From an uncultured Roseovarius sp. (GTDB lineage Bacteria > Pseudomonadota > Alphaproteobacteria > Rhodobacterales > Rhodobacteraceae): DNA of 64,000 bases. A model generated the notes under the pieces. The model did not search any database. It was not told the origin of the DNA and was given only the letters and a program-made list of their open reading frames with translations. Shown here piece by piece: positions 36,473 to 38,997 of the stretch. The position numbers were made by a program, and so were the translations under genes. The stretch's first letter is position 1. Every line of letters begins with the position of its first letter. The DNA lies in contig CANMBU010000002.1 in the NCBI GenBank assembly GCA_947496175.1, forward strand, positions 248,001 to 312,000, in the 5' to 3' direction.

Positions 36473-37777
36473 ATGCCCGTTCGCCTAGATGCCAGTTCTG
36501 CTGATTTCGAAGATGCCTTCCGTGCACTGCTGAGTGCCAAGCGCGAGGACAGCCCCGATGTGGATGCTGTCGTGGCCGAGATCATTGCTGATGTGCGGGC
36601 CCGGGGCGATGCGGCGCTGATCGAGCTCACCGCGAAGTTTGACCGTCTTGAACTGACCCCCGAAACGCTGCGGTTTTCGGCTACTGAGATTGATGTCTTG
36701 GTGACGCAAGTCCCTGAAAAAGAACGTAAAGCACTCGAACTCGCCACTCTGCGTATTCGCGCCTATCACGAGCGCCAAATCCCCGAAGATGCAAACTGGA
36801 CAGAAGAAAACGGAGCCACTCTGGGCTGGCGCTGGAGCCCGGTTTCCGCGGCAGGACTGTATGTGCCGGGTGGATTGGCGTCTTATCCGTCCTCTGTCCT
36901 GATGAACGCCATCCCGGCCAAGGTCGCGGGCGTTGAGCGGCTGGCTATTGTCGTGCCCACACCGGATGGCGTGGCCAACCCTGCGGTGCTGCTGGCGGCG
37001 CAGATTGCTGGGGTAGATGAGATTTATCGCGTGGGCGGAGCGCAGGCCGTGGCGGCGCTCGCTTATGGGACGGAAACGATTGATCCGGTTGATAAAATCA
37101 CGGGGCCGGGCAATGCCTTTGTGGCGGCGGCCAAGCGGCGGGTCTTTGGCAAGGTCGGCATCGACATGATTGCGGGGCCGTCTGAAATTCTCGTCATTGC
37201 CGATGCGGATAATGATCCCGATTGGATCGCGCTGGATATGCTCAGTCAGGCGGAGCATGATGAAAGCGCGCAGGCGATTTTGATCACCAATGATGCAGGA
37301 TTCGCGCAAGATGTTGAAATGGCTATTGAAAAGCGCCTTGAGACACTGGAGCGCCGCGCCATTGCCGGGGCCAGTTGGCGTGACTATGGTGCGGTAATCA
37401 CAGTGCCCGATCTGGATGTGGCCGCACAGCTTACAGACCGGATTGCGCCCGAGCATCTGGAGCTGTGTGTGGCTGATCCCGAGGCGCTAGCGGCTCAAAT
37501 CACCCACGCTGGTGCTATGTTCCTCGGTGCTTGGACGCCCGAGGCCATCGGCGACTATGTGGGCGGGCCCAATCATGTTCTGCCCACCGCACGCTCGGCA
37601 CGGTTCTCATCTGGGCTCAATGTGCTCGATTTTCTCAAGCGCACGACGATGGCCAAAATGACACCCGAGGCGCTCAAAGCCATCGGCCCGGCGGCCGAAA
37701 CGCTGGCTATCTCCGAGAGCCTGGAGGCGCATGGGCTGAGCGTACGCGCGCGGCTGGATCGGCTCAATCAGGGGTGA
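36473..37777 (+). CDS. hisD: Histidinol dehydrogenase
   Basis: This 434-residue zinc enzyme oxidises L-histidinol to histidine in two NAD-dependent steps. It has YVPGGLASYPSSVLMNAIPA, GGAQAVAALAYGTE, DKITGPGN, the zinc-ligand region LSQAEHDESAQ and the catalytic glutamate/histidine in IAPEHLEL. An AAGGAT site precedes the ATG. It is followed at once by a REP-like palindrome and the broken RAYT gene. Confidence 0.96.
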   Translation: MPVRLDASSADFEDAFRALLSAKREDSPDVDAVVAEIIADVRARGDAALIELTAKFDRLELTPETLRFSATEIDVLVTQVPEKERKALELATLRIRAYHERQIPEDANWTEENGATLGWRWSPVSAAGLYVPGGLASYPSSVLMNAIPAKVAGVERLAIVVPTPDGVANPAVLLAAQIAGVDEIYRVGGAQAVAALAYGTETIDPVDKITGPGNAFVAAAKRRVFGKVGIDMIAGPSEILVIADADNDPDWIALDMLSQAEHDESAQAILITNDAGFAQDVEMAIEKRLETLERRAIAGASWRDYGAVITVPDLDVAAQLTDRIAPEHLELCVADPEALAAQITHAGAMFLGAWTPEAIGDYVGGPNHVLPTARSARFSSGLNVLDFLKRTTMAKMTPEALKAIGPAAETLAISESLEAHGLSVRARLDRLNQG

Positions 37778-37785
37778 TGCTACCC

Positions 37786-37809
37786 GTAGGGTGGGCAGTT
37801 CTGCCCACC
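37786..37809 (+). repeat. REP-like palindrome between hisD and the RAYT gene
   Basis: GTAGGGTGGGCAG-TT-CTGCCCACC starts 8 bases after the hisD stop. It has the GTAG head and a perfect GGTGGGCAG/CTGCCCACC stem. It flanks the transposase remnant on the left, as REP elements do next to their RAYT. Confidence 0.88.
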
Positions 37810-37855
37810 GCGCAAGTCAACCAACCATTATCACAATCTCGGCTTTACTCGGCGC

Positions 37856-38375
37856 ATGCCAAACTATCGCCGCGCCCGGGTTTCCGGGGCAAGTTACTTC
37901 TTCACGGTGAACCTTGCCAGTCGCCGCTCGGACCTGCTTGTGACGCATATCCATGAGCTGCGCGCAGCCTATGCCGCCACGATCCGGGATATGCCCGTGA
38001 TCTGCGACGCGATGGTTGTTTTGCCGGATCACTTGCACGCGGTCTGGACTTTGCCGCCGGGCGATTGCGATTTTTCGGAGCGCTGGCGCAAGATCAAACA
38101 CCGGTTTTCCCGGAATCTGGGCGGCGTGGTGGGCAGAACTGCTCACCGCTACGGCTTTGTCGGCGAGCAAGCGTGCAAAACGAGAGTGTGGTATTTGGCA
38201 AAGGCAGTTTTGGGAGCATGTGATCCGCAATGAGGCGGACTATGCCGCCCATGTCGCTTACTGTTGGGGGAACCCGGTGAAGCACGGACTAGTTGAACGT
38301 GCGGTAGATTGGCCTTACTCCTCCCTACATCGCGATATTCGCCTTGAAAGAGCACCGGACTATCTTTCACGGTAG
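37856..38375 (+). pseudogene. REP-associated tyrosine transposase (RAYT, Y1/HUH family), frame-disrupted
   Basis: The first frame encodes PNYRRARVSGASYFFTVNL and the HUH motif in VVLPDHLHAVWTLPPGD, then RWRKIKHRFSRN, all typical of RAYT/TnpA_REP. After about 38115 the match moves to the +1-base frame, which gives ASKRAKRECGIWQRQFWEHV, YCWGNPVKHGLV with the C-terminal PYSSLHRDI, and a stop at 38373-38375. The switch coincides with an internal REP-like palindrome at 38126-38152. The original product would have been about 170 residues. Both ends are flanked by REP-like units. It is probably inactive unless frameshifting occurs. Confidence 0.88.
38126..38152 (-). repeat. REP-like palindrome inside the RAYT coding region
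   Basis: GTGGTGGGCAG-AA-CTGCTCACCGCTAC is nearly the reverse complement of the unit at 37786, with a few differences over about 26 bases. It lies exactly where the transposase homology changes reading frame, so it may be a REP copy inserted in its own mobiliser. Confidence 0.8.
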
Positions 38376-38395
38376 GTGGGCAACCTTGCCCACCA
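38372..38395 (+). repeat. REP-like palindrome at the RAYT 3' end
   Basis: GTAGGTGGGCAA-CC-TTGCCCACC has the same orientation as the unit at 37786. Its GTAG head supplies the TAG stop codon of the transposase frame, so the repeat is fused to the end of the gene. Confidence 0.85.
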
Positions 38396-38517: not shown

Positions 38518-38997
38518 ATGAGCCGTATTTGTCATATTGAGTTGGATGACGCCAACCTGCCGCCGCCCACGCCCGAGATCGAGCAAGAGCGCAAGGTGGC
38601 GATGTTTGATCTGATCGAGGAAAACTCGTTCATTCTGCCCAAGCGCGATGATCGCATCGCACCTGATGGCCCCTACCGGGTCGGGCTGGCCATTCGCGAA
38701 AAGCGACTGGTTTTTGACGTGCAGACCGAAGACAACAAACCGGCGGCCGAGTTTCATCTTTCGCTCAGCCCGTTCCGTCAGGTGGTCAAGGATTACTGGG
38801 CCATCTGCGAGAGCTATTTTGATGCGGTGAAAAACCTGCCGCCGAGCCAGATCGAGACCATCGACATGGCCCGGCGCGGCATTCACAACGAGGGCGCGCG
38901 TGTGCTCGAAGAACGCCTTGAGGGCAAGGCGGAGATCGACAATGACACGGCGCGGCGGCTCTTTACGCTGATCTGCGTGCTGCATTTCGGGGGCTGA
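38518..38997 (+). CDS. UPF0262-family protein
   Basis: This 159-residue soluble protein is uncharacterised and conserved in alphaproteobacteria. It has ICHIELDD at the N-terminus, ERKVAMFDLIEENSF, GPYRVGLAIREKRLVFDV, and a C-terminal RRGIHNEGARVLEERLEGK. It lies 5 bases before the phosphatase gene, the usual neighbour. The frame is open upstream into the REP region, but ATG 38518 is the family start. Confidence 0.88.
   Translation: MSRICHIELDDANLPPPTPEIEQERKVAMFDLIEENSFILPKRDDRIAPDGPYRVGLAIREKRLVFDVQTEDNKPAAEFHLSLSPFRQVVKDYWAICESYFDAVKNLPPSQIETIDMARRGIHNEGARVLEERLEGKAEIDNDTARRLFTLICVLHFGG

Follow-up and report, generated by a model that had tools for sequence, protein, structure and literature searches.

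REP sequences lying in frame inside tnpA-REP (RAYT) genes have already been reported, and in the main-text passages of Quentin et al. (2018; PMC6006769) they are called unique to subclass 2.4, with some subclass 2.8 genes described as also carrying an internal REP. According to the same passages, proteins of subclass 2.4 have the motif NH[IFV]H and a variable insertion domain placed after strand 3 and before helix C; those of subclass 2.2 (the E. coli type) have the motifs DHLH, WE and YIHYNP and a short insertion between helix C and strand 4, and insertions at this site in the E. coli subclass lie near the REP-recognizing region. Translated palindromes inside ORFs are known also as intragenic REPs and Rickettsia palindromic elements, and the GTAG termini of REPs often provide the TAG stop of neighboring ORFs (PMC3733652). 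In the parts of that source used here, the hosts of intragenic REPs differ from the case described below in being many other kinds of genes, and RAYT genes are not named.

The locus analyzed here lies in a 64,000-nt stretch (the window) of the genome of an uncultured Roseovarius sp. (GCA_947496175.1, contig CANMBU010000002.1, positions 248,001 to 312,000). As shown in Table 1, a RAYT gene split over two frames is found between hisD and a UPF0262 gene. The three REP-like palindromes of the original prediction were found at their places, with the flanking pair in direct, not inverted, orientation and the internal copy inverted. All three belong to one class (GTGGGCA..TGCCCAC), which confirms that the gene contains a REP and has REPs of this same class on either side. 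The internal REP consists of a stem at 38128-38147 with one mismatch and a CTAC foot at 38149-38152, and it encodes a segment of the loop that joins helix C to strand 4; the first RAYT frame (ORF 37856-38233) reads into it as VGRTAH and stays open to 38233. The second half of the gene sits in ORF 38016-38375, whose TAG stop is, as had been predicted, supplied by the foot of the 3′ REP. The pattern GTGGGCAN{2,5}TGCCCAC occurs at 8 places in the 3.85-Mb genome, above chance as judged by a reversed-pattern control (0 places). Both flanking REPs are among the 8 places, while the internal REP is absent from these exact matches because of its one stem mismatch. The window gene is thus flanked, as befits a RAYT, by GTAG REPs that recur in the genome. 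Two inverted REPs of one class close together, the arrangement of a REPIN, were not found in the window loop, which holds a single REP.

Table 1. Features of the RAYT locus (positions in the window).
Feature	Position	Strand	Remarks
hisD, upstream neighbor	36473..37777	+	ORF; gene name as in the original prediction
5′ flanking REP (GTAG foot and perfect palindrome)	37786..37809	+	also in G470
RAYT first frame: N-terminal half, DHLH (HUH) motif	37856..38146	+	NF047646 positions 1-88
Internal REP, inverted relative to the flanking two	38128..38152	-	in frame in G470
Place of frame loss	38147..38155	+	one extra base compared with G470
RAYT second frame: C-terminal half (WQRQFWEH, YCWGNPVKHG)	38154..38375	+	NF047646 positions 89-146
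3′ flanking REP	38372..38394	+	GTAG foot 38372-38375; TAG stop 38373-38375
UPF0262 gene, downstream neighbor	38518..38997	+	family name as in the original prediction

The identity of the gene was established with the NCBIfam model NF047646 (146 positions), which matched the first frame with 96.6 bits (cut-off 80) and the second with 78.4 bits, slightly below the cut-off; the intact RAYTs L007, L008, and L029 gave 181.2, 167.8, and 172.8 bits, respectively. The Pfam model Y1_Tnp was too weak for this purpose, with an E-value of 0.11 on the first frame, no match on the second and nothing at E ≤ 0.001 across the window genome. No single protein of the window locus holds both the HUH and the tyrosine motif, as the first frame has DHLH and the second has YCWGNPVKHG, whereas both are present in the single frame of the sister genome G470. 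The 86-aa part of the first frame was matched in 21 of 60 genomes, i.e., the window genome and 20 relatives of the same genus.

Genome G470 was found through its UPF0262 protein, which, like the 50 aa of hisD available, is identical to that of the window. It carries the same RAYT at the same hisD-UPF0262 junction, with 601 of 627 bases identical and two gap columns in the alignment. The G470 gene contains GGTGGGCAGAACTGCCCACC, coding for VGRTAHPT, in an unbroken frame of 172 codons that ends at a TAG in the foot of the 3′ REP. Relative to G470, the window gene has one additional base at the internal palindrome’s 3′ foot, and the foot of its 3′ flanking REP is one base shorter. In both genomes the internal palindrome is read in the upstream frame, and the window gene leaves this frame at, or immediately after, the 3′ foot of the palindrome. 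The class of the window’s internal REP is likewise in frame in five other loci: the same 20-mer was found in L035 and L038 and a near-identical one in L007, L033, and L039, of which L007, at another locus of another genome, reads VGRTAH in an open frame.

These comparisons bear directly on what broke the gene. The original prediction proposed that the insertion of a REP copy (3n+1 bases), taken here as a recent one in the window lineage, had shifted the frame and inactivated the element’s own transposase, so that an intact homolog should be shorter by 25 or 28 bases. A REP-like palindrome does lie at the frame break; yet G470 has that palindrome in an open frame at the same locus and differs by a single base, and therefore the insertion account was rejected and retains a negligible probability. 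Self-inactivation by a REP copy found no support either, as the REP is in frame in the intact genes of G470, L035, and L038. What stands of the prediction is that the homology changes frame near the internal palindrome, although not across it, and that REPs enter RAYT genes, although as in-frame residents of intact genes and not as disruptive insertions. An error of base calling or assembly, which would leave the window gene intact, is suggested by the position of a single base beside a G+C-rich hairpin and by the fact that the strain is represented by one assembly. We consider it unlikely, since the window differs from G470 nearby also in a stem base and in the 3′ REP foot, and since a glutamine close by takes the place of an arginine found without exception in alignments A1 and A2, though L125 also has glutamine there. 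Programmed ribosomal frameshifting could join the two halves, which are well preserved and whose frames overlap, into one product. However, the closest copies (G470, L007, and L008) use one frame and a +1 shift would be needed, which makes this explanation hardly credible. Programmed frameshifting of the +1 type is the rarer kind.

As the G470 gene is intact with the palindrome, the internal REP is best taken as an in-frame resident and the frameshift as a later event. Our preferred reading, to which we assign a probability of about 0.85, is that the window locus is a REPtron with such a resident REP, later broken by a one-base length difference. The RAYT gene, related to that of E. coli TnpA-REP and flanked by its own REPs, carries the internal copy as a translated part of the flexible loop between helix C and strand 4, as is seen in G470 and other intact relatives, and it lost its frame at the 3′ foot of this copy, where it departs from G470. 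Because of the frame break, the locus probably makes no full-length RAYT. Substitutions relative to G470 are distributed unevenly: the first frame has 3 synonymous and no amino acid differences in 86 codons (86/86 residues identical), and the second half has 3 synonymous and 4 amino acid differences in 73 codons (94.5% identity over 73 aa), one of the four being the glutamine mentioned above. Such lopsided changes would suit a recent decay of the window RAYT, without proving it. We also observed that both one-base length differences between the window and G470 in the 627-bp RAYT stretch fall at REP feet (38148-38152 and 38372-38376), which adjoin GTAG, the reported place of RAYT cleavage. Imprecise action of the RAYT or slippage at the hairpin is possible behind both, two events being too few for a firmer statement.

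The junction itself was compared among 60 genomes of the same genus, all of which have UPF0262 (60/60). Thirty loci were examined and 15 of them showed both neighboring genes; the RAYT was present at the junction in 3 of these (window, G470, and G030) and absent in 12. A match to the C-terminal part of hisD was found at this junction in G470 (50 aa) and in G031 and G030 (119 aa). In G031 the 119-aa hisD tail and UPF0262 are 100% identical to those of the window and no RAYT lies between them, but the junction has other sequence and does not, therefore, represent a clean empty site. This G031 junction (L142) contains palindromes of another class (CCGGGGT..ACCCCGG), with no RAYT match.

To describe the loop across the family, taken here as Rhodobacteraceae in the wide sense, a profile was built from 12 intact RAYTs, which matched 131 of 394 family genomes. 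We used 26 loci from the first-frame search, 30 from the profile search and 80 more in rank order, four matches in that ranking being passed over as cut or partial. Of the 141 RAYT frames found, 126 remained after removal of L032, a duplicate, and of 14 frames that were partial or diverged, including the two of the window. The loop was defined as the stretch between RF[ST] and WQRRFWEH. It measured 13-22 aa in 59 of the 126 frames and was longer in 67. A hairpin score of at least 8 was reached by none of the 59 short loops and by 56 of the 67 long ones; of overlapping segments of the same length from other parts of the genes, 24 of 1327 (short-loop genes) and 36 of 1024 (long-loop genes) did so. 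Only 18 of the 67 long loops exceeded all 100 codon shuffles (mean score 8.4 vs. 5.0), a blunt control because the hairpin score saturates. Perfect palindromes with an arm of at least 8 numbered 89 in 7797 bp of loop and 3 in 29547 bp elsewhere in the long-loop genes, vs. 0 in 3591 bp and 5 in 25554 bp, respectively, in the short-loop genes. By a looser count, in which some palindromes have no GTAG foot, the 67 long loops contained two palindromes in 36 cases, one in 24, none in 6 and three in 1, and the two-palindrome loops were mostly, not always, tagged as an inverted pair. In 81 of 84 cases the tagged loop REPs kept to a single reading phase for a given orientation and parity, with 2 or 3 phases usually open to them, which suggests common descent of the site or a constraint on the peptide.

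A tree of 128 rows required no fewer than 24 switches between the short and the long type of loop, where shuffling gave a mean of 42.4, and no fewer than 49 changes when all classes were distinguished (66.0 when shuffled); as only 11 of 125 inner branches were strongly supported, these values are not taken as numbers of events. The named loci are the best 80 of 552 confirmed relatives, ranked by similarity to the G470 group and hence a biased sample. Among them, a hairpin score of at least 8 was found in 14 of 35 loci from Rhodobacterales (one, L248, with a short loop) and in none of the 37 measured loci from other orders and classes. The other 8 comprise 2 unmeasured loci, 3 from Alphaproteobacteria without an assigned order (a REP loop being present in L195) and 3 that have no class assigned. 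For L207, L212, L237, and probably L199, the loop length was mis-anchored, and these were not counted as long loops.

Several arrangements depart from the usual one. The two-REP loops of L055, L061, L062, L067, and L087 are in R-then-F order, the reverse of the common F-then-R, and some palindromes of L067 and L087 lack the GTAG tag. The loops of L054 and L226 contain a perfect 13-bp palindrome with GTAG at one end and CTAC at the other, resembling the double-foot REPs described for subclass 2.4 in the passages of PMC6006769. At L037 (G081:C296, 7270-8216), an intact RAYT is directly followed downstream by a second RAYT match that lacks the N-terminal part.

We then compared loop REPs with those around them. 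In the 49 loci with both an internal and a tagged flanking palindrome, the two matched at 15-16 of 16 stem positions in 37, a level reached by 11% of mismatched pairs. The mean stem match was 14.2, and the highest of 10000 permutation means, with relatedness retained in the permutation, was 12.1. The remaining 12 loci differ from their flanking REP, and the second RAYT of the window genome is one of them. The comparison was extended to 12 genomes chosen by loop class, six with GCGGGGT and six with GTGGGGT. Palindromes of GCGGGGT numbered 5-42 in the six genomes with that loop and 0 in the six with the other. Conversely, GTGGGGT occurred at 5-28 places in its own six genomes and at 0, 0, 0, 0, 6, and 1 in the others; where 6 were counted, the genome contains a second RAYT, L034, which is of the GTGGGGT class. 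These class counts include copies in or beside the RAYT gene, which in G443 make up 4 of 5. In the 12 chosen genomes, the class of the loop REP agrees with the REP class of the genome.

The stems are held at the level of DNA. A comparison of 12 related pairs gave 2 differences among 320 stem sites and 199 among the 898 other positions of the loop. Fourfold sites were compared in 10 pairs: 1 of 62 differed within the stems, as against 39 of 123 for the remaining loop and 231 of 541 for the core. All pairs were hand-chosen, some share a member, and stems were recognized by their palindromy in both members, so that both contrasts are inflated to some degree. A MAFFT alignment of 16-nt stems proved mis-registered, and covariation was for this reason counted on 11 distinct 19-nt stems, one of which is itself out of register; 6 of 8 stem pairs had changed on both sides, pairing being kept in all cells, in stems that had been picked as palindromes. 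The loop palindromes might alternatively be a by-product of a conserved peptide and not REP DNA. The single reading phase in 81 of 84 cases and recurring peptides such as VG..PT are in keeping with this, but fourfold stem sites almost without change, paired changes in the 19-nt set and loops that track the REP class of their genome make it very unlikely. Near-frozen stems of in-frame REPs would instead reflect either conservation of the hairpin or continual overwriting from the palindromic REP population.

The window genome keeps a second RAYT (L029), an intact open frame of 183 codons at C1:189269-189808 (L029 1501-2040), whose loop REP is of another class. Its counterpart in G031 (L015, 1501-2055) is at the same locus (87.6% identity over a 2074-column alignment). 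Identity between the two is 95% before the loop, 65% in the loop and 87% after it, and their loop REP classes differ. The L029 loop is 85% identical to that of L023, while the remaining parts of these genes are 72% identical; G470 has the L029 type of loop. This pattern indicates that the loop of an orthologous second RAYT has been replaced by one of another REP class, and it constitutes a natural loop swap at one orthologous locus between the window genome and G031. One tagged flanking REP stands beside each of L029 and L015; it is the same REP and matches neither loop. The loop thus changed without its neighbor, which counts against a strict coupling of loop and flanking REP.

Predicted models of the G470 RAYT and L029 (mean pLDDT 79.3 and 79.0; L029 residues 96-119 under 50) assign the REP-coded loop, with low confidence, to the segment linking helix C to strand 4. 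The best PDB fold match of the G470 model was 4er8, E. coli TnpA-REP with a REP hairpin, and the same entry was the sole match of L029 among PDB sequences at E ≤ 1 (E = 6.8e-43). Unlike L029, E. coli TnpA-REP is without a REP-coded loop, and the 30 loop residues of L029 fall between its chain residues 86 and 87. The Rhodobacteraceae RAYTs studied here differ from subclass 2.4, as described in PMC6006769, in having DHLH and a loop that both models put after helix C, and they are not assigned to it. A place in subclass 2.2 is at most tentative: judged by its description, DHLH and WE are present, the loop is at the stated site and 4er8 is the closest structure, but the tyrosine motif is YCWGNP where YIHYNP is described.

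A search for RAYT with Rhodobacteraceae or Roseobacter found no paper in the library used, and no Rhodobacterales is named in the main-text passages of PMC6006769. Neither the Rhodobacterales group and its REP loops between helix C and strand 4, nor near-frozen synonymous sites, class agreement and a loop swap, were found in the searches made here or in the consulted portions of PMC6006769, PMC3733652, PMC8266576, and PMC2817692. In-frame REPs in RAYT genes being known, we rate the Rhodobacteraceae loops as a further variant, which extends in-gene REPs beyond the subclass for which the passages of PMC6006769 call them unique. The locus also teaches caution, as a palindrome at a frame break is not necessarily its cause.

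For the window genome, the few REPs of the window class may have lost their own transposase. In the Rhodobacteraceae genes surveyed, the loop is short in some and extended in others, the extension usually consisting of one or two in-frame REPs, mostly of the class flanking the gene; we propose that its stems would be maintained by selection on the hairpin or by repeated overwriting through RAYT action or recombination. A further and rather doubtful extension is that a REP writes part of its own recognizer, the same bases serving as the bound hairpin and as codons of a loop beside the REP-binding region. Class agreement and the modeled position of the loop near the region that recognizes REPs in E. 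coli would argue for it, and the L029/L015 case counts against it. These observations bear on the spread of REPs and on what keeps them matched to their transposase, and in-frame targets, near-frozen synonymous sites and a natural loop swap provide matched material for testing loop specificity. If the extension is true, target and enzyme would change at once whenever the loop cassette is exchanged, specificity would reside in RAYT loops as swappable cassettes, and the REP class of a genome could be read from its transposase.
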